DNA from: Arthrobacter russicus
GTDB taxonomy: Bacteria; Actinomycetota; Actinomycetes; Actinomycetales; Micrococcaceae
Direction of reading: 5' to 3'
Assembly: GCF_031454135.1 (NCBI RefSeq)
Contig: NZ_JAVDQF010000001.1
Span: 3,596,001 to 3,660,000, forward strand
Length of the DNA: 64,000 nucleotides
Part shown: one piece after another, positions 21,776 to 44,335 of the stretch
How positions within the stretch are numbered: position 1 is the first letter of the stretch
Layout of the letters: each line of letters opens with the position of its first letter
Program-made: the position numbers and the translations under genes
The notes under the pieces: model-generated
Databases searched by the model: none
What the model was told of the DNA's origin: nothing
What the model saw: the letters and a program-made list of their open reading frames with translations, nothing else

Positions 21776-22126
21776 TCAGTTCCAGAGCGTGGCCACCGCG
21801 ATATTGATCAGGGCCATGCCGCCGACCGCGTGGGCCAAACCGGTGGAGACCTGCTCGCCCTTTTTGGCCTTCCGGTAACCGATGATCGCCGGAACCAGAA
21901 CCGCGATGGCGATCAGCAGTTTGACCGTGATCTTGATGTAGTTCAGCGGGTCGCGGCTTGCCCCGGCCAAGCCCACAAGGGCCAGGCCGGTGATCAATTG
22001 CGCAGTGGCGCCCCAGAGCTGGATCGGCAGCACCGTAGGCTTTTTGAAAGTGGCGAACCAGCCGCCGACGACGGCCGCGGCACCGAGGATGTGCAAGAAG
22101 ATCAGCAGGTATTTGACGAAGTCCAT
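21776..22126 (-). CDS. Small integral membrane protein, candidate BlaI-regulon member
   Basis: A 116-residue protein with four predicted membrane helices (about 4-25, 34-54, 66-86, 95-114) and short loops. His12 in the first helix (LLIFLHILGAA) and His98 in the last (TGLAHAVGG) are placed where heme or copper ligands often lie in small membrane proteins; this is inference only. No ribosome site precedes the ATG; a TAGAAT -10-like hexamer (22133-22138, minus strand) ends 6 nt before it, pointing to a leaderless transcript. A TTCTAC-N5-GTAGAA palindrome overlaps that hexamer. The same palindrome type occurs at the cyd operon. No family is recognised. Confidence 0.8.
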   Translation of the reverse strand: MDFVKYLLIFLHILGAAAVVGGWFATFKKPTVLPIQLWGATAQLITGLALVGLAGASRDPLNYIKITVKLLIAIAVLVPAIIGYRKAKKGEQVSTGLAHAVGGMALINIAVATLWN

Positions 22127-22133
22127 ATGGTTA

Positions 22134-22150
22134 TTCTACGGGATGTAGAA
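22134..22150 (-). promoter_or_regulatory. TTCTAC-N5-GTAGAA palindrome over the -10 of the small membrane protein gene
   Basis: TTCTAC at 22134-22139 and GTAGAA at 22145-22150 flank GGGAT. It overlaps the -10-like TAGAAT and begins 7 nt from the ATG. Arms and spacer are the same as at the cydA sites 38269 and 38315. A half-site TTTCTAC is also at 22179-22185. Confidence 0.75.
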
Positions 22151-36588: not shown

Positions 36589-36640
36589 ACCTCGGATTCC
36601 GCCGAGTATCGGAGTCCAGCCCGAATATCCATGACACCCC

Positions 36641-36831
36641 GCGCGAGTGCACACGTGAGCGTTCGGCCCTTTCGTGTCGAACTCCGTTCGCCACGTAGGG
36701 ACCCTGGCGAACGCACACGTGAGCGTTCGGCCCTTTCGTGTCGAACTCCGTTCGCCACGTAGGGACCCTGGCGAACGCACACTTGGCGCGGGTGTTTCGC
36801 GGAATTACCCGCGCCAAGTGTGCACTCGCGC
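36641..36831. repeat. Intergenic repeat element: 64-bp tandem duplication plus long hairpin, bounded by 14-bp inverted repeats
   Basis: Two perfect 64-bp copies at 36649-36712 and 36713-36776 are followed by a hairpin with 17-bp perfect arms (36777-36793 and 36807-36823). The first arm is GCACACTTGGCGCGGGT. The whole is bordered by GCGCGAGTGCACAC (36641-36654) and its complement at 36818-36831. It lies between converging parE and M56 genes, so the hairpin may serve as a terminator, but the repeats suggest a REP/MITE-like element. Confidence 0.8.
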
Positions 36832-36860: not shown

Positions 36861-37814
36861 TCAGCCCAGGGCGGGGAGGACCAGCAGCGCGGTGGGCGCC
36901 GCCAGCAGCAGCACCGAAGCGGCCAGTACCAGGGCCTGCAGTGGGGTGCTCAAGGGCGGTTCCGGGTTGATCAACCGCTGGATCCGCGAGGCGGTGGTGG
37001 CTTCGGTGTCGAAACCTTCCAGCGGGACCGCGTGGCTGCTGCCCTCGAGCGAGCCCGAGGCGACCAGGGCGATGGAGCGGACCAGGACCGGCTCCGAGAC
37101 CACGGTCAGCGCCGCGTCGTCGGCGAGCATTTCGATCAGCTCGTTGACCGAGCGCTGGGCCAATTTCGACGTCGGCAACCAGGGCAGGGCGGATTTCCAG
37201 GCGGCGAAAGCCCAGAGCAGCAGGTGGTGCCGTTGGGTCAGGTGCGTATTTTCATGGGTCAGCACGGCACGCAGTTCTTCGGGCTTGAGCAGTTCGAGCA
37301 ACCCGTCGGAAAGCACGGTCACCGATCTGGCCCCGCCGGGCAGGCAATAGGCGACCGGCATCCGGTGGTTGATGACGACCGTGCCCGGCTGTTCTGCCGA
37401 AGGCGAAGAAAGCAGGAGCAGCAGTTCCCGGTGCCGGCCGCGTTGCCGTTGGATCCGCACGTAGGTCAGCAGCAAGGTGAACAGCAGATGCGCGCCGAGC
37501 AGTCCGGCCGCGGAGAGGGCGAAGGCGTGCCAGAAGCGCAGGCCGCCGATCGGCGCGTTGAAGAATACGATGTCGATCAGCCGGTGCGAGGCCGAGAAGA
37601 TGTTGCTGCCCAAGGGCGCCAGGCCCCAGGTCAGCATGGCGCCGATCATCGACAGTCCGCCGGCCAGGCCGATCGCCTGCCAGAGGATCATCGCACTGGC
37701 CGGCGAGCGGCGGGGCCACTGCGCCCGGGAGAGCAGTACCGGTGCGGGCCAGGCCAAAATGACCGCCAGGGCGGCCAGCACCCAAGCAGCGACGGTGAGC
37801 GGATCCAGGCTCAA
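36861..37814 (-). CDS. M56-family membrane metallopeptidase (BlaR1-like, without sensor domain)
   Basis: A 317-residue membrane protein. The zinc-metalloprotease motif is LTHENTHLTQRHHLL (HExxH-type, with Glu in place), flanked by membrane helices at about residues 5-26, 37-60, 85-110 and 285-310. The BlaR1/MecR1 N-terminal layout is present but the extracellular penicillin-binding domain is absent, so beta-lactam sensing is unlikely. It is downstream of the BlaI-like gene by 22 bp on the same strand, the standard repressor/protease pair. By analogy it may cleave or trigger inactivation of the repressor in response to a membrane or respiratory signal. Confidence 0.88.
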   Translation of the reverse strand: MSLDPLTVAAWVLAALAVILAWPAPVLLSRAQWPRRSPASAMILWQAIGLAGGLSMIGAMLTWGLAPLGSNIFSASHRLIDIVFFNAPIGGLRFWHAFALSAAGLLGAHLLFTLLLTYVRIQRQRGRHRELLLLLSSPSAEQPGTVVINHRMPVAYCLPGGARSVTVLSDGLLELLKPEELRAVLTHENTHLTQRHHLLLWAFAAWKSALPWLPTSKLAQRSVNELIEMLADDAALTVVSEPVLVRSIALVASGSLEGSSHAVPLEGFDTEATTASRIQRLINPEPPLSTPLQALVLAASVLLLAAPTALLVLPALG

Positions 37815-37836: not shown

Positions 37837-38208
37837 TCAGTCCCCGCTGCGTTCGAGCAGCTTGCGCAGCGTTGTGGCTTCGTCTGCAGAGACCGAGCCG
37901 ATGAAGCGGGCCAGAACGGCTTCCCGGTCCGGAGCGGAACCGAGCACTTCGTGCATCAACTCCGCGGTGTGCTCCGCGCGGGAGGTCACTGAGCGGTAGC
38001 GGTGCGGACGGATGTCCCGTTCACGTTCCACCAGCCCCTTTTTCTCCAATCGCGACAACACCGTCAAAACCGTGGTCACCGCGAGTTCTTTGCCGTGCGA
38101 AGCCTCCAGGTGCGAGAGCAGATCCCGCAACTCGTTGGCCGTGAGCGGCTCGGGTTGCTGCCACAGCAGATCCATTACGGATCGCTCCAGTTCACCCAGT
38201 GTCGCCAT
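37837..38208 (-). CDS. BlaI/MecI/CopY-family repressor
   Basis: A 123-residue winged-helix dimeric repressor. The helix-turn-helix region starts ATLGELERSVMDLLWQQPEP, with LAVTTVLTVLSRLEKKGLVERERD as the recognition helix and wing (residues about 43-66), and the acidic C-terminal helix (TLRKLLERSGD) gives dimerisation. The ATG at 38208 has AAGGA 6 nt upstream; longer starts at 38232 and 38247 lack one. The divergent cydA gene and three TAC-N5-GTA palindromes upstream make regulation of cytochrome bd and of itself very likely. In Mycobacterium tuberculosis BlaI (Rv1846c) was reported to control respiratory genes, which agrees. Confidence 0.92.
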   Translation of the reverse strand: MATLGELERSVMDLLWQQPEPLTANELRDLLSHLEASHGKELAVTTVLTVLSRLEKKGLVERERDIRPHRYRSVTSRAEHTAELMHEVLGSAPDREAVLARFIGSVSADEATTLRKLLERSGD

Positions 38209-38268
38209 GCTCGTCCTTCGTTCGTCTGCCATTGCTGCAGATACCAATGTAGCTTGTTTCCCGGGTTA

Positions 38269-38287
38269 TTTCTACGACCAGTAGAAA
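38269..38287. promoter_or_regulatory. BlaI-type operator 1 (cyd/blaI region)
   Basis: TTTCTAC (38269-38275), GACCA, GTAGAAA (38281-38287): perfect 7-bp arms with the TAC-N5-GTA core of BlaI-family sites. Centre 38278. Confidence 0.85.
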
Positions 38288-38290
38288 ATG

Positions 38291-38307
38291 TTCTACACTG
38301 TGTAGAA
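38291..38307. promoter_or_regulatory. BlaI-type operator 2 (cyd/blaI region)
   Basis: TTCTACACTGTGTAGAA is a perfect 17-bp palindrome containing TACA-N3-TGTA, the core described for BlaI/CopY repressors. Its centre is 21 bp from operator 1. Confidence 0.88.
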
Positions 38308-38314
38308 GTTATAT

Positions 38315-38331
38315 TTCTACAAGACGTAGAA
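38315..38331. promoter_or_regulatory. BlaI-type operator 3, overlapping the cydA leader
   Basis: TTCTAC (38315-38320), AAGAC, GTAGAA (38326-38331). It abuts the GAGG ribosome site of cydA, 10 bp before the ATG, and follows a TATATT -10-like hexamer at 38310-38315. Its centre is 24 bp from operator 2. Confidence 0.82.
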
Positions 38332-38340
38332 GAGGATGGG

Positions 38341-39960
38341 ATGGAAGCCCTCGACATCGCCCGCTGGCAATTCGGCATCACCACGGTGTACCACTTCCTG
38401 ATGGTGCCGCTGACCATCGGCTTGGGTCTGGTGGTCGCAGTTCTGCAGACCGTGTGGCTCAAAACCAAGAAGCCCGAATACTTGCGGATGACCAAGTTCT
38501 GGGGCAAGTTGTTCCTGATCAATTTCATCCTCGGGGTGGCTACCGGCCTGGTTCAGGAGTTCCAATTCGGCTTGGCCTGGAGCGAATACAGCAGGTTCGT
38601 CGGCGACGTCTTCGGGGCGCCGCTGGCGATGGAAGCCCTGCTTGCCTTCTTCATCGAATCGACCTTCCTCGGTTTGTGGATCTTCGGCTGGAAGAAGCTC
38701 CCGGCGAAGCTGCATCTGGCTTGCCTGTGGATCGCGGTGCTCGGCTCCGTGGTGAGCGCCTATTTCATCCTGGTCGCCAATTCCTGGATGCAGCATCCGG
38801 TGGGCGTCACCATGGTCGATGGCCGTCCGCGGATGACCGATGCCTGGGCGGTCTTCACGAACAACACCGCGCTGGTGGCCTTCCCGCACACGATTTTCGG
38901 TGCACTCGCGGTGGCCGGGGGATTCCTGCTCGGCATCTCCTGGTACCACCTTTGGAAACGGCGGCGTCTGGGCATCGACACCGTGGACGCGAAAAAGCGC
39001 GTGGTGGTAGGCGAAAGCCCCGTCGTGGACGGCAAGATGCAGTACCCGGGGCGGGACAAAACGGACCACAAGGTCTGGATCCGTTCCTTGCGGATCGGCG
39101 CCGTGGTCGCGATGATCGCTTTTGCCGGAACCGCGATCAGCGGGGATTTGCAGGGCAAGCTGATGTTCGAACAGCAGCCGATGAAAATGGCCGCGGCCGA
39201 GGCCGCCTGCCAGAACGGCACCAGCTTCTCGATCCTGTCGATCGGCGACGTCGGCGCAAAAAACTGCAATGACGTCGCGGCGCTGATCGAAATCCCCGGT
39301 CTGCTGTCCTTCTTGGCGCACGGCGATTTCGACACCGAGGTGAAGGGCGTCAACACCCTGCTGCCGGAATACCAGGCGAAATACGGGACCAACCTGCCGG
39401 ACAATCCGATTTACGGCGACCGGGCCGGCCAGCCGATCCAGTACGTTCCGGTGATGGCGGTGACCTACTGGGGATTCCGGATGATGATCGGCTTCGGCGG
39501 GATCGCGGCTTTGGCGGCCTTCGTGGCCTTCTTCATCGCCAGACGCGGCACTGTGCCGGAATCCAAGTGGCTGATGCGGCTCGCGGTCTTCGGCATCCTG
39601 GCGCCTTTCGGGGCCAACTCGGCCGGTTGGATCTTCACGGAGTTGGGCCGGCAGCCCTTCGTGGTGGCGCCGAATCCGCAATTGAGCGGCATCGACCAAG
39701 TCTTCATGTTCACCGCGGCGGCGGTATCGCCGGGGGTGAGCGTGGGCGAGCTGGTCTTCTCGTTGGTGGCCTTCATCGTGGTCTACGCGGCGCTGTTGGT
39801 GGTCGAAGTGTTCCTGTTGTTCCGTTATGTCCGAGGCGGAGTGGCCTCCGCGATGCCGGAGCTGGCGGCGCCGCCACCGGACCCGGACGACGAAGCCGAC
39901 GACGGCGACGCTGAAAACCAGAAAAAGGACGACGACGATGTGCTCGCCTTCGCCTATTAA
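38341..39960 (+). CDS. cydA: Cytochrome bd ubiquinol oxidase subunit I
   Basis: A 539-residue membrane protein and terminal oxidase subunit that carries the hemes. Family marks are ARWQFGITTVYHFLMVPLTIG with His18 (heme b595 ligand), ALLAFFIESTFLG (Glu), SWMQHPVG, and ELGRQPFVV. The quinol-loop is short (actinobacterial form). The C-terminal 25 residues are acidic (DDEADDGD). ATG at 38341, GAGG 9 nt upstream; a longer in-frame start would run through the operators. Divergent from the BlaI/M56 pair, followed by cydB and cydDC. Probably induced when the main oxidase is limited or inhibited. Confidence 0.97.
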   Translation: MEALDIARWQFGITTVYHFLMVPLTIGLGLVVAVLQTVWLKTKKPEYLRMTKFWGKLFLINFILGVATGLVQEFQFGLAWSEYSRFVGDVFGAPLAMEALLAFFIESTFLGLWIFGWKKLPAKLHLACLWIAVLGSVVSAYFILVANSWMQHPVGVTMVDGRPRMTDAWAVFTNNTALVAFPHTIFGALAVAGGFLLGISWYHLWKRRRLGIDTVDAKKRVVVGESPVVDGKMQYPGRDKTDHKVWIRSLRIGAVVAMIAFAGTAISGDLQGKLMFEQQPMKMAAAEAACQNGTSFSILSIGDVGAKNCNDVAALIEIPGLLSFLAHGDFDTEVKGVNTLLPEYQAKYGTNLPDNPIYGDRAGQPIQYVPVMAVTYWGFRMMIGFGGIAALAAFVAFFIARRGTVPESKWLMRLAVFGILAPFGANSAGWIFTELGRQPFVVAPNPQLSGIDQVFMFTAAAVSPGVSVGELVFSLVAFIVVYAALLVVEVFLLFRYVRGGVASAMPELAAPPPDPDDEADDGDAENQKKDDDDVLAFAY

Positions 39961-40008: not shown

Positions 40009-41010
40009 ATGGATTTCCTGCCCACCTTGTGGTTCGTGGTGATCGCGGTGCTGTGGACCGGGTACTTGTTCCTGGAAGGCTTCGACCTGGGCGTCGGCAT
40101 GCTGATGAAGCTGTTCGCCCGCGACAATGCCGAGCGCCGGGTGCTGCTCAATACCGTCGGGCCGGTTTGGGACGGCAACGAGGTTTGGCTGATCACGGCG
40201 ATCGGCGCGACTTTCGCGGCGTTTCCGAGTTGGTACGCCTCGCTGTTGTCGGCGCTCTACTTGCCGATGATCCTGGTGCTCCTGGGCCTGATCTTCAGAG
40301 CGGTGGCTTTCGAGTACCGCGGAAAGGTCGATGCGGTGCGCTGGCGCGGAGTCTGGGACTGGGCGATCCTGCTGGGCTCGGCAGTGTCGGCCTTCGGGGT
40401 CGGCGCGGCATTGGCTTTGACCAGCACCGGGCTGCCGTTGAACGCGAACGGAGACCGGATCGGCGGCGCCTTCGCCTGGTTCAACGGCTATGCCGTGCTG
40501 GGCGGTGCTGCGGTAGTGCTCTTCTGCGTGGTCCATGCCGCGGCGTTCCTGGCGCTCAAAACCGATGGCACGGTGCGCGAACGCGCCCGCAAGCTGTTCC
40601 GCCGGGCGGCGCCCTTCGCGCTGCTGCCATTGCTCGCCTGGGGGCTGGCGGTGCAACTGTCGAACCAGAAGCCGCTCGGTTGGGCGTTGCTGCTGCTCGG
40701 CGTGCTGGCGGTGGGCTTCGCGGTGATCGCGGCTGCCCGGCGGCGTGAAGGCTGGGCGTTCGTGGGTTGCGGCGTGTTCCTGCTCAGCATGATGGCCACG
40801 ATCTTCCTCAACCTGTTCCCGAATGTTCTGCCCTCGACGCTCTCCGCGGACTTTTCGTTGACCGTGCAGAACGCCTCGGCCTCGCCTTATACCTTGGGCC
40901 TGATCAGCATCATCGCGAGCTTCGGCGTGCCTCTGGTGCTGGCTTACCAGGGTTGGACCTACTGGGTGTTCCGCAAGCGGATCAGCAGCCGAAGCCTGCC
41001 GGCGCACTGA
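40009..41010 (+). CDS. cydB: Cytochrome bd ubiquinol oxidase subunit II
   Basis: A 333-residue membrane protein with about eight to nine helices, beginning MDFLPTLWFVVIAVLWTGYLFLEGFDLG, the standard CydB N-terminus (the Glu-Gly-Phe-Asp motif). VWDGNEVWL with Trp and Asn, and FNGYAVLGGAAV are further family patterns. It pairs with CydA to build the oxidase. 48 bp separate it from cydA and 10 bp from the following fused ABC gene, so cydA-cydB-cydDC are one operon. Confidence 0.97.
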   Translation: MDFLPTLWFVVIAVLWTGYLFLEGFDLGVGMLMKLFARDNAERRVLLNTVGPVWDGNEVWLITAIGATFAAFPSWYASLLSALYLPMILVLLGLIFRAVAFEYRGKVDAVRWRGVWDWAILLGSAVSAFGVGAALALTSTGLPLNANGDRIGGAFAWFNGYAVLGGAAVVLFCVVHAAAFLALKTDGTVRERARKLFRRAAPFALLPLLAWGLAVQLSNQKPLGWALLLLGVLAVGFAVIAAARRREGWAFVGCGVFLLSMMATIFLNLFPNVLPSTLSADFSLTVQNASASPYTLGLISIIASFGVPLVLAYQGWTYWVFRKRISSRSLPAH

Positions 41011-41020
41011 GGACCGGCAG

Positions 41021-44000
41021 ATGAAACCCGAAATTCCGCGTTCCAGTCTGCCGGGGCTCTATCTCCTGGGGGTGCTCAACGCGCTCAAAGCCGCCTCGAT
41101 GGTGGTTTTCGCCGACGGCCTGGCGAATGCGATCATGGCCTCGATCGAGGGCCGTCCGGTCAACGGTCCCTTGGGCGTTGCCGCGGCCGCGGTGGTGCTC
41201 CGCGCTGCGATGGTATGGGCCGTGCAGGCGAGTGCGAAACGGACCGGGCTCGGTGCCAAGGAGAAGCTCCGCGCCGAGCTGACCCGCAATTGGCTGGACA
41301 AGGCCGGGACGAAACGCACCGAGGCGGCTGGCGGAGCTTCGGTTTTGGCGAGCAACGGCTTGGACGCCCTGGACGGGTACTACAACCAATATCTGCCGGC
41401 CCTGGTCAGCGCGGCGACCGTGCCGCTGGTGATCGGCACCCGGATCCTGACCGCCGATTGGGTCAGTGCGCTCATCGTAGTGCTCACGATTCCCCTGATT
41501 CCGATCTTCATGGCTTTGATCGGCTGGTACACCGAAGAAAAAGTCAGTGCGGCGACCGGCGCCTTGTTGCGGTTGTCCGGGCAGCTCGCCGAACTCGCCC
41601 GTGGATTGCCGGTGCTCATCGGGTTGCGCCGGGCCAAAGAGCAGCGTGCGGCCCTGGACCAACTGGGCGAAGCATACCGGAGCACTACCATGGCGACGCT
41701 CCGGGTCGCCTTCTGGTCGGCATTGGCCTTGGAACTGATCGCAACCCTGTCGGTGGCGCTGGTCGCGGTATTCATCGGCGTGCGGCTGGTCTACGGCCAG
41801 CTCGGTCTGGGGACCGGACTCCTGGTGCTGATCCTGGTCGCGGATTGCTACCTGCCGTTCCGGGAGCTCGGCTCGGCGTTCCATGCCAGCGACGACGGGC
41901 GCGAGGCCTTGCGTCGCAGCCGGAAGGAGCTGGCCGCGCCGGCGGGCCGTCGCTTGCCGGAGCATTCCGGGCCGGACGCTGCGGGATTGCAGGTCGAGCG
42001 GCTCAGCGTGCGCTACTTGGACCGGGCAGTACCGGCTTTGAACGGCGTCCGCCTCCGAATCCCTGCGGGCTCGCTCTGTGCAATTTCCGGCCCGAGCGGG
42101 TGCGGCAAATCGACTTTGTTGGGTGTGCTGGCCGGGACCGTGACCTCTGCGGATGCCGAGATGTCCGGCAGCGTGCAAGGCCTCGATCCGGAAAAGCTGG
42201 CATGGCTGCCGCAGAACCCGGGCAGCACCGAAACCACTGCGGCCGATGAACTGGTGTTGTGGGGTGCCAGCGGGGAGGCGCAGATCTCTGCTGCCTTGGC
42301 CGCGGTGGGACTGGCTGGACGAGAAGCGCAGCACCCGGCCTCGCTGAGTCCCGGGCAATTCCGGAGGCTCGCCTTGGCGCGGATTCTGCTCCGGGTGGAG
42401 GCGGGAGCCACCGTGGTCCTGGTTGATGAACCGACGGCCCATGTGGACGCTGCTTCAGCGCGACTGATCGAAGCGGCTCTGGTCTCGCTGCGCGGCCGGG
42501 TCACGGTGTTGTTGGTGAGCCACGATCCGCGCGTCGTGGCGCTCGCCGACCAGCATCTGGAGTTGGCCGGGCCGGTGGTCCCGGAATTCCGGACGCAGCC
42601 GGCTGCGGATGCACCAGCAGTCCGTCCGGCCGGGAATCCGGCAGCTCGGGAGCTGTCTGCTGCCGAGGCCGGTGCTGAATCACAGTCGGACCCTGATATC
42701 GGAAGCGGCCAGGCGAGGTCCCGGGCCGGATCGACGTTCCGGATCTGGCTGCGGGTTCTGCAACCCTGGCGGCCGGGTTTCCTGGGTGCGGTGGGCTTCG
42801 GCGTCTTGGCCGCCTTGGCCGGTCTGGCGCTCACTGCGCTTTCCGGCTGGCTCATCGTCCGGGCGAGCCAGCAGCCGCCGATCCTGTATCTGCTCACCGC
42901 GATCGTCGGGGTGCGGTTCTTCGGTCTGCTGCGCGCGGTTTCCCGTTATCTGGAACGGCTGAGCACCCATCAAGCGGTCTTCGCCGCCGCCGACCGGTTG
43001 CGTGGGCGGCTGTGGGACGCCTTGGCCAAAACGCTGCCCGGGAACCGGGCCTTGGGCAGGGGAGAGGCGGTGCTGCCGAGGCTGGTTGGCGAAGTGGACG
43101 AACTCCGGAACTTGATGCCCCGGGTGCTGCTGCCGCCGGTCACCGCAGTGCTGGCTTCGGTCGCGGTCCTGATCTGCACTTCGCTGCTGTTCCCGCAAGG
43201 TTTCGGACTGCAGCTGGCCGTAGTCCTCGGCGCGGCACTGGCGGCTCCGGCGTTGGCGCTTTGGGCGGATCGGCGCTCGGTACGGTTGGAACAACAGCAA
43301 CGCGATCAACTGTTCCGCGGTCTCACGGTGCTACTCGGTGCGGCCGCGGAACTGCGGACGAACCGGGTAGACGGGCCGCTGCTCGCCCGGCTCTCCGCGG
43401 TGGACCGCGGTGCGACTGCCTCGGCGCAACGCGGAGCTTGGGCCGAGGGGCTGGCCATGGCGGCGCTGACCTTGTTCGGCTGCCTGGCGGCGCTGGGCAT
43501 GGTGTTCATCGGCGCTCCGTTTCTCAGCTCCGGCCAACTCCGACCGGAAGTGCTGGTGGCGCTGGTGCTCCTGCAATTGGGGTTGGTGGATGCGTTCTCG
43601 CCCTTGGTGCAATCAGCGCCGGGCTTGCCGCTGCTGCGGCGCATGGCCCGGTCGCTCGGCGCCCAACTGCAGGTTCCCGAGCTTCCGGTGGTCCCCATCG
43701 CGGCACCGGGCCGGGCGATCCAGGCCGAAGCCCTGGCGATCGGCTGGCAGGGCAGCACGGTGGCCGAGGCGCTGGAGGTGGATCTGGCGTCCGGGGATTG
43801 GCTGACTGTGACCGGGCCTTCCGGATCCGGCAAGTCGACCTTTCTGGCGACCTTGATGGGTTTCACGCCTGTGCTCGGCGGGCGGCTGGCCGTGAACGGA
43901 AAGCTTGCCTGGTGTCCGCAGGAAGCCCATCTGTTCAACTCGAGCCTGCGCGGGAACCTGGCTTTGGCCAGAGCCAAAGCGGATGCCCCGTCGGCAGAGG

Positions 44001-44335
44001 AGATGACCCGGGTTTTGACCGAGGTCGGCCTGGGCGAGTGGCTTGGCGGGCTCAGCCGGGGACTGGATACCCCACTCGGCGTGGCCGGCGGATTGGTTTC
44101 CGGTGGTCAGCGGCAGCGAATCGCGGTGGCCCGGGCATTGCTGACCCGGGCCGACATCGTTTTGCTCGATGAGCCGACGGCGCATTTGGACCGGGCATCC
44201 GCTGCCGAGCTGATGGCCGATCTGCGGCGCAGCCTGGCCAGCAAAGCGGTAGTGCTGATCACCCACCATGTGGCCGACCGGAGCGCCGGGGATGCGGTGC
44301 TCGACCTCGGCACGCTCGAGCCTGCCAGGCGCTGA
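41021..44335 (+). CDS. Fused CydD-CydC thiol/heme-assembly ABC transporter
   Basis: A 1104-residue protein in which two half-transporters are joined. CydD part: membrane domain to about residue 300, Walker A GPSGCGKST (about 357), signature LSPGQFRRLALAR, Walker B VLVDEPTAH. A low-complexity linker (about 525-570) leads to the CydC part: membrane domain about 575-860, Walker [10 protein letters not shown] (about 931), signature SGGQRQR and Walker B IVLLDEPTAHLD. CydDC is needed for assembly of cytochrome bd (export of cysteine/glutathione in Escherichia coli). The fusion form is known from other actinobacteria. ATG 10 bp after cydB. Confidence 0.95.
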   Translation: MKPEIPRSSLPGLYLLGVLNALKAASMVVFADGLANAIMASIEGRPVNGPLGVAAAAVVLRAAMVWAVQASAKRTGLGAKEKLRAELTRNWLDKAGTKRTEAAGGASVLASNGLDALDGYYNQYLPALVSAATVPLVIGTRILTADWVSALIVVLTIPLIPIFMALIGWYTEEKVSAATGALLRLSGQLAELARGLPVLIGLRRAKEQRAALDQLGEAYRSTTMATLRVAFWSALALELIATLSVALVAVFIGVRLVYGQLGLGTGLLVLILVADCYLPFRELGSAFHASDDGREALRRSRKELAAPAGRRLPEHSGPDAAGLQVERLSVRYLDRAVPALNGVRLRIPAGSLCAISGPSGCGKSTLLGVLAGTVTSADAEMSGSVQGLDPEKLAWLPQNPGSTETTAADELVLWGASGEAQISAALAAVGLAGREAQHPASLSPGQFRRLALARILLRVEAGATVVLVDEPTAHVDAASARLIEAALVSLRGRVTVLLVSHDPRVVALADQHLELAGPVVPEFRTQPAADAPAVRPAGNPAARELSAAEAGAESQSDPDIGSGQARSRAGSTFRIWLRVLQPWRPGFLGAVGFGVLAALAGLALTALSGWLIVRASQQPPILYLLTAIVGVRFFGLLRAVSRYLERLSTHQAVFAAADRLRGRLWDALAKTLPGNRALGRGEAVLPRLVGEVDELRNLMPRVLLPPVTAVLASVAVLICTSLLFPQGFGLQLAVVLGAALAAPALALWADRRSVRLEQQQRDQLFRGLTVLLGAAAELRTNRVDGPLLARLSAVDRGATASAQRGAWAEGLAMAALTLFGCLAALGMVFIGAPFLSSGQLRPEVLVALVLLQLGLVDAFSPLVQSAPGLPLLRRMARSLGAQLQVPELPVVPIAAPGRAIQAEALAIGWQGSTVAEALEVDLASGDWLTVTGPSGSGKSTFLATLMGFTPVLGGRLAVNGKLAWCPQEAHLFNSSLRGNLALARAKADAPSAEEMTRVLTEVGLGEWLGGLSRGLDTPLGVAGGLVSGGQRQRIAVARALLTRADIVLLDEPTAHLDRASAAELMADLRRSLASKAVVLITHHVADRSAGDAVLDLGTLEPARR

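Follow-up and report, generated by a model that had tools for sequence, protein, structure and literature searches.

A BlaI-family repressor, a sensor-less membrane protease and a conserved palindromic operator at the cytochrome bd genes of Arthrobacter russicus suggest a respiratory and heme regulon

Background

BlaI/BlaR systems are usually presented as antibiotic-resistance switches. The pair considered here lies in a stretch of 64,000 nucleotides from Arthrobacter russicus (assembly GCF_031454135.1, contig NZ_JAVDQF010000001.1, positions 3,596,001 to 3,660,000 of the forward strand; the whole stretch is called "the window" below), where it is tied by position and by operator to the genes of the bd oxidase (cyd), a link found in many actinobacteria. 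Comparison of sequences makes it very probable that the members of this divergent pair, a BlaI-family repressor and a BlaR1-like protease, together switch a regulon of respiratory and heme genes.

The closest described system is the BlaI (Rv1846c)/BlaR (Rv1845c) pair of Mycobacterium tuberculosis. BlaI of this species is stated to bind the promoters of cytochrome bd and of ATP synthase, and mycobacterial BlaR to lack a penicillin-binding domain as well and to regulate BlaI and BlaC; blaR-blaI is induced by amoxicillin-clavulanate (PMC5473688, 2017). Rv1303, a gene in the operon for ATP synthase, is reported to be bound and repressed by BlaI (PMC12565901). In a copper-starved sigC mutant cydABCD and rv1303-rv1305 were raised together, and blaI is named in that section (PMC7924339).

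The blaI-cyd locus

The genes and sites of the locus are as follows.

36861..37814, minus strand: BlaR1-like membrane protease with a zinc site (M48/M56), 317 amino acids, no sensor domain (Pfam, motif and fold search)
37837..38208, minus strand: BlaI-family repressor "BlaI1", 123 amino acids (PF03965, E 1.8e-22; best PDB match 2g9w, E 9.3e-21)
38270..38286, no strand: operator site 1, exact palindrome TTCTAC-N5-GTAGAA, TTCTACGACCAGTAGAA
38291..38307, no strand: operator site 2, exact palindrome TTCTAC-N5-GTAGAA with 8-bp arms, TTCTACACTGTGTAGAA
38315..38331, no strand: operator site 3, exact palindrome TTCTAC-N5-GTAGAA, TTCTACAAGACGTAGAA, overlapping the likely cydA ribosome-binding site
38330..38336, plus strand: AAGAGGA, likely cydA ribosome-binding site, read from the sequence
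38341..39960, plus strand: cydA, cytochrome bd subunit I (PF01654, E 1.4e-153)
40009..41010, plus strand: cydB, cytochrome bd subunit II (PF02322, E 7.1e-102)
41021..44335, plus strand: cydDC fusion, CydD and CydC in one protein of 1104 amino acids (TIGR02857 and TIGR02868, both above cut-off)

An original prediction, made from the sequence alone, had proposed that a BlaI/M56 pair controls cyd through three palindromes. Its BlaI-like repressor at 37837-38208 was confirmed by the PF03965 profile (Penicillinase_R winged-helix), with 80.3 bits for a gathering cut-off of 22.6; the best structural match, 2g9w, is presumably Rv1846c. The protease was correctly described as lacking a penicillin-binding sensor domain, for which the 317 residues gave no match, protease-domain matches alone being found; as to its assignment to M56, the score lies below the Pfam cut-off (20.2 for 31 bits), and that for M48 lies above it (40.3 for 20.3). 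A zinc motif, HENTH, is located at residue 187, and HExxH is kept in 102/102 homologs read. The AlphaFold model (alignment of 36 sequences, predicted local distance difference test score 92.4) ends with a closing helix at 289-315 and no domain beyond. When this model was used in a PDB fold search, Staphylococcus aureus BlaR1 came first (E 8.5e-4, probability 1.00) with a template-modelling score of only 0.32, so that the modelled fold may be similar to that of S. aureus BlaR1 but superposes poorly on it.

All three palindromes, predicted with TAC-N5-GTA cores, are present as exact copies of TTCTAC-N5-GTAGAA. The arms of site 1 pair one base further on each side (38269-38287). Site 3 indeed touches the likely ribosome-binding site of cydA, overlapping the AAGAGGA ahead of the ATG at 38341. 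The centre distances of 21 bp (sites 1-2) and 24 bp (sites 2-3) were likewise borne out; their reading as about two helical turns is corrected to about 2.3, neighbouring centres being 24-25 bp apart in 61/89 pairs of the listed tandem loci described below. The 3.82-Mb genome, a single contig, holds six exact matches and none of the reversed control pattern, for a chance expectation of 0.037 in the whole genome (at the window's 65% GC), and the palindromes are therefore not due to chance. With at most one mismatch, 15 sites were found against 6 for the control; since the control itself yields 6, some of the one-mismatch sites are chance occurrences.

Like the M. tuberculosis system, the pair combines a sensor-less protease with respiratory targets (in M. 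tuberculosis, Rv1303 shown, PMC12565901; cytochrome bd stated, PMC5473688) and an N5 palindrome architecture, which in Mycobacterium-like genomes is found upstream of BlaI. It differs in adjoining cydABDC with three tandem operators, in its outer bases (TTC against TAC) and in the sites carried by hmp and chdC. With the staphylococcal BlaR1-BlaI and MecR1-MecI systems it shares a PF03965 repressor and a membrane zinc protease, S. aureus BlaR1 being the top fold match; in contrast to them it has no penicillin-binding sensor domain, the NCBIfam BlaI cut-off is missed (24.7 for 180 bits), and no beta-lactamase stands at the six exact sites, in a genome not itself searched for beta-lactamases. The copper repressors CopY/TcrY belong to the same superfamily, and CopC genes have the site ahead of them in a few cases among relatives; the score to TIGR02698 (30.2 bits) is nevertheless far under the cut-off of 121.95, and BlaI here has a protease as its partner and is linked to cyd. 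Control of cyd by Rex, Crp, ArcA or SenX3-RegX3 likewise acts on the bd oxidase under respiratory stress (PMC7739888, PMC5874750), but these are other regulators, and the Crp consensus TGTGA-N6-TCACA (PMC7739888) is unlike TTCTAC-N5-GTAGAA.

The pair would work like BlaR1/BlaI but lacks the sensor domain, and is therefore a variant of that system. For its link to cyd, M. tuberculosis offers a stated precedent (PMC5473688), so that direct control of cyd, which the original prediction had considered new, is not wholly so. A literature search covering mostly open-access papers found no description of a BlaI-cyd operator in Micrococcaceae. What is apparently new is the linked, conserved operator and the breadth of the regulon. 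Reportedly, cyd was not among the five loci of Sala's 2009 abstract.

Occurrence of the operator and of BlaI in the family

The exact site is present in 131/149 genomes of the family. Genomes were considered as BlaI-negative (n = 23) when they had no match (18) or a weak or diverged one (5: G011, G040, G064, G085, G058). The site was found in 125/126 BlaI-positive genomes, with 683 sites for 59 of the reversed control, and in 6/23 BlaI-negative genomes, with 6 sites for 4 of the control (Mann-Whitney test on site counts, p 2e-14, a value inflated by relatedness). The single BlaI-positive exception (G087) carries a copy with one mismatch in its blaI-cydA interval. The BlaI-negative genomes retain chdC in 23/23 cases and cydA in 16/23 (15 full, one a fragment); at these 23 chdC and 16 cydA loci no site with at most one mismatch was found, except at cydA of four genomes of the group g12. 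Comparison of the genomes thus supports a site that tracks BlaI, rather than cydA or the Rrf2/NsrR-like protein discussed below.

Target genes of the operator

Targets were read in 30 genomes, namely that of A. russicus and 29 of 32 searched relatives, a non-random sample in which every genome has at least one site. The sample yielded 137 sites, of which 135 were read (two of G020 were left out). Genes were called with a simple codon model, which gave no start within 350 bp for 5/135 sites; one of these five (L140) adjoins blaI and cydA according to tblastn, and the other four have no assigned gene. A site at most 361 bp upstream of blaI was found in 29/29 sampled genomes having the ortholog (G011 has none), so that a palindromic operator ahead of the own blaI gene, one of the marks of the BlaI family, is common to all 29. 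A site at cydA was seen in 28/30 genomes, the regions being drawn around sites so that a cydA without one is invisible in this sample; it was not seen in G012 and G025, which have a site at blaI and in which the presence of cydA itself was not searched. Sites stand at chdC in 14 and at hmp in 11 of the 30 genomes.

By target, the 135 sites are divided among blaI/cydA (60), chdC/hmp (25), genes for heme, cytochrome, copper or ATP synthase functions (17), four recurring small-protein groups (15) and other places (18). The class of 17 includes an ATP-binding cassette (ABC) gene, hemE/hemA, CopC and a ResA-like gene, as well as, once each, SURF1, CtaB, QcrC, a COX2 protein and a gene followed by what are, by eye, ATP synthase genes. 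At L049 the ABC gene with its site is followed by an ABC permease gene and by a gene labelled by eye as CtaA-like.

In the A. russicus genome, the three exact sites remaining outside the blaI-cydA interval are located upstream of hmp (flavohemoglobin), of chdC (hemQ) and of a small membrane protein gene. That of hmp lies between an Rrf2/NsrR-like gene and hmp; chdC is identified by HemQ_actino (316.6 bits for a cut-off of 235), and a ferrochelatase gene follows it. The third of these sites is the fourth exact site of the window:

22134..22150, no strand: operator site, exact pattern match
21776..22126, minus strand: small membrane-type protein of 116 amino acids, likely member of the regulon, starting 7 bp from the site

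No Pfam or NCBIfam family matched the 116-residue protein; homologs with a site occur at L050 and L129, and a weak one (30% identity) at L330. Among the nine one-mismatch sites of the genome, four precede a ResA-like thioredoxin gene (L313), an ABC gene (L314) and genes of two membrane-type proteins (L307, L312), homologs of which carry exact sites in relatives; three (L306, L310, L311) have no explanation.

Small membrane-type proteins without a family recur behind the site (window 21776-22126; L307, 847-1455; L312, 1027-1458), and are candidates for respiratory factors without known family.

Wider survey and variant operators

Named genomes were scanned for tandem sites, defined as two sites 2-14 bp apart. 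At least 120 stretches were obtained, and 80 loci were listed and all read. Among these listed matches, cydA lies within 200 bp in 72/80 loci, 63 of which also have blaI; a BlaI-family gene lies within 200 bp in 67/80, and is the only one of the two in 4/80 (three of Aurantimicrobium, one of Planctomycetota). The taxa include Micrococcaceae, Microbacteriaceae, Geodermatophilaceae, Pseudonocardia, Nesterenkonia and Parafrankia. The identity of their cydA to that of the window goes down to 26%, and inheritance as one unconstrained block is therefore unlikely.

In a survey of the class, the site was found in 48/344 genomes (own family 5/6, family f4 11/17, family f23 28/29, elsewhere 4/292). In f4 it is present in 11/11 BlaI-positive genomes and in 0/6 BlaI-negative ones. 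The proposed check for palindromes at related blaI-cyd loci turned out positive in general, one locus (L398) being without them.

Several more distant BlaI keep the architecture of the site with changed outer bases. In the Mycobacterium-like family f11, TACKAC-N5-GTAGTA or its complement is found 35-63 bp upstream of blaI in 8/8 regions; a BlaI of the Mycobacterium-like genomes (L338) matches 2g9w with E 1.6e-66. The sites of five Mycobacterium-like genomes were fetched in part; the variant stands before cydA in 5/5 and before one shared small gene in 5/5; in three of the genomes the reading was carried further, and there this small gene is followed by ATP synthase genes (label by eye). The remaining fetched sites precede genes without an evident link. 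A genome of family f30 (L406) has divergent blaI and cydA with three TACTAC-N5-GTAGTA sites in between. Where the motif differs, the change is found at both blaI and cydA. BlaI position 48, which by homology belongs to the recognition helix, is L in 86/93 proteins of loci with the TTC site and M in 17/17 from f11, f22, f25 and f37, clade and motif being confounded in this comparison.

Alternative explanations and contrary evidence

The alternative that survives best, though unlikely, is a beta-lactam or cell-wall-damage regulon as in the case of M. tuberculosis BlaI, in which respiratory genes would follow because envelope damage disturbs respiration. The M. tuberculosis system is sensor-less too, yet amoxicillin-clavulanate raises both blaR-blaI and cydAB (PMC5473688). 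It does not follow, then, that a protease without a penicillin-binding domain has a signal other than a beta-lactam, as the original prediction had argued, and the lack of this domain leaves room for an indirect beta-lactam response. The exact sites of A. russicus speak against such a regulon, as 0/6 stand at a penicillinase or wall gene (in a genome not searched for beta-lactamases).

An improbable alternative is that several BlaI paralogs share the site, and that a second protein, BlaI2 (genome position 534846), acts on all of the targets or on part of them. BlaI2 (G000:C1:534846-535184, in the region 4000-8105 of L315) is 39% identical to BlaI1, and 2.3 kb separate its BlaI/protease pair from two one-mismatch sites with a spacing of 21 bp (537474-537511), between DUF5134 and DUF3515 genes. 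In addition, four g12 genomes without a close BlaI ortholog (best about 39% or less) have an exact site before cydA (L146-L149). In the three read, a relative of the site 133 bp upstream of the diverged BlaI has two mismatches (L316) or three (L317), and there is none in L318. As g12 keeps the cydA site with only a diverged BlaI left, a second BlaI-family protein may read it there. By contrast, genomes with a single BlaI (E <= 0.001; G017, G019, G025, G030, G075) still have 5-7 sites, located at blaI plus chdC, hmp or other recurring targets.

It is still less probable that the palindromes at cyd travel with a blaI-cyd block and control blaI alone, although blaI and cydA flank the tandem sites in the 63 of 80 listed loci given above. 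In G004, blaI and cydA are unlinked and each has its own site (L044, L045). In two genomes of f4, cydDC stands apart from cydAB and each part has its own site (L329, L332), and Mycobacterium-like cydA bears the variant site while blaI and its site lie elsewhere. Retention of the site merely through linkage to cyd is ruled out by the unlinked and split cases.

Genes of the nitric oxide (NO) response commonly include both hmp and cyd. It is scarcely credible that the palindromes serve the Rrf2/NsrR-like protein, whose gene precedes hmp, as its operator, with BlaI as a bystander: one site does lie between the two genes, but when the strong matches to this protein in the family (90 of 96) are considered, site numbers follow BlaI (mean 5.79 in 52 genomes with BlaI and without a strong Rrf2-like match) and not the Rrf2-like protein (mean 0.12 in 16 genomes with the reverse), which rules the latter out as reader, and a BlaI-family gene accompanies the 67 of 80 listed tandem loci already mentioned.

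A number of observations weigh against the repressor-protease switch proposed here. They include, from the preceding paragraphs, the paralog near two near-identical sites in the own genome, the g12 cydA sites with their possible second reader, and the Rrf2/NsrR-like gene that precedes hmp. The 18 of 135 sites found elsewhere stand ahead of genes without a recognised respiratory, heme or recurring link. The listed tandem loci comprise 9/80 with cydA and no blaI within 200 bp and 4/80 with neither. At L398 (G347, family f6) a BlaI of 55% identity is divergent to a cydA of 64%, and at L405 (G162, f23) a BlaI of 53% is found, both without a palindrome at up to one mismatch. The variant motif is mildly enriched genome-wide in 16 genomes (85 strand hits for 47 of the control, palindromic hits counted twice), and its position is therefore the evidence. 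A scan of 38150-38400 for sigma-70-like promoters found none. Under amoxicillin-clavulanate, cydAB goes up and ATP synthase genes go down, a poor fit to simple joint release (PMC5473688). Crp is the demonstrated regulator of Mycobacterium smegmatis cydAB in PMC7739888, where BlaI is not mentioned; a further element is suspected there to lie far upstream, away from the site position seen here.

Proposed mechanism and significance

The sequence comparisons lend good support to BlaI as the reader of the sites and to cyd as a direct target, and to this extent the original prediction is supported; the circuit appears to be wider than cyd, which we conclude to be part of a larger regulon of heme, cytochrome and NO-defence genes. 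In the proposed switch, the winged-helix BlaI is predicted to bind the 17-bp TTCTAC-N5-GTAGAA palindromes. The three sites covering the start region of cydA would repress cydABDC and blaI-protease together, and single sites would repress hmp, chdC and the small membrane gene; the one-mismatch sites at the ResA-like, ABC and two membrane-protein genes probably belong to the same regulon. A membrane signal would lead the BlaR1-like zinc protease to inactivate BlaI, releasing the bd oxidase, the NO-detoxifying flavohemoglobin and the genes of heme and cytochrome assembly. Repression and release by the protease are inferred here because the BlaI/BlaR1 family works in this way. As for the signal, our most likely, though speculative, candidate is a failing main heme-copper oxidase branch, for instance through NO, shortage of heme or copper, or low oxygen.

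A broader proposal is put forward tentatively: BlaI and sensor-less BlaR could, across much of the actinobacterial class, detect when the heme-copper oxidase branch fails, and the response of mycobacterial BlaI to beta-lactams would be a side branch of an older respiratory role. What the protease would then sense is the condition of the respiratory membrane (quinol pool, heme, copper or NO); the regulon would swap in cytochrome bd, remove NO and rebuild heme and oxidase assembly. The fall of the ATP synthase genes (PMC5473688) and the upstream element (PMC7739888) make this proposal slightly less likely.

An old respiratory role is also suggested by the variant operator that Mycobacterium-like genomes carry at blaI, at cydA and at the ATP synthase locus, and the finding bears on the question of what sensor-less BlaR senses. 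BlaI is moreover a candidate for the cydA induction that in M. smegmatis still reaches 7.3-fold when both Crp sites are lost (PMC7739888), though the authors look for its cause further upstream.

Other observations

In Aurantimicrobium (L188, L201, L246) the tandem site stands before a distant BlaI-like gene with no cyd, and this gene adjoins one for a PCuAC-type copper chaperone (label by eye). On a Planctomycetota contig (L206), a tandem site is located 16 bp ahead of a BlaI-family gene (36% identity), because of which the operator may be older than the actinobacterial class. Tandem sites also occur on contigs of Clostridia, Tyzzerella, Verrucomicrobiales and Oscillospiraceae (L193, L195, L211, L237), with no BlaI or cydA recognised nearby.

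In the window, the promoter scan of 38150-38400 gave a terminator-like match at 38234-38253. Between the protease gene and a gene that by eye is gyrase/topoisomerase B-like, the interval 36638-36829 contains a direct repeat of 64 bp in tandem (94% identical) and a 28-nt inverted repeat.
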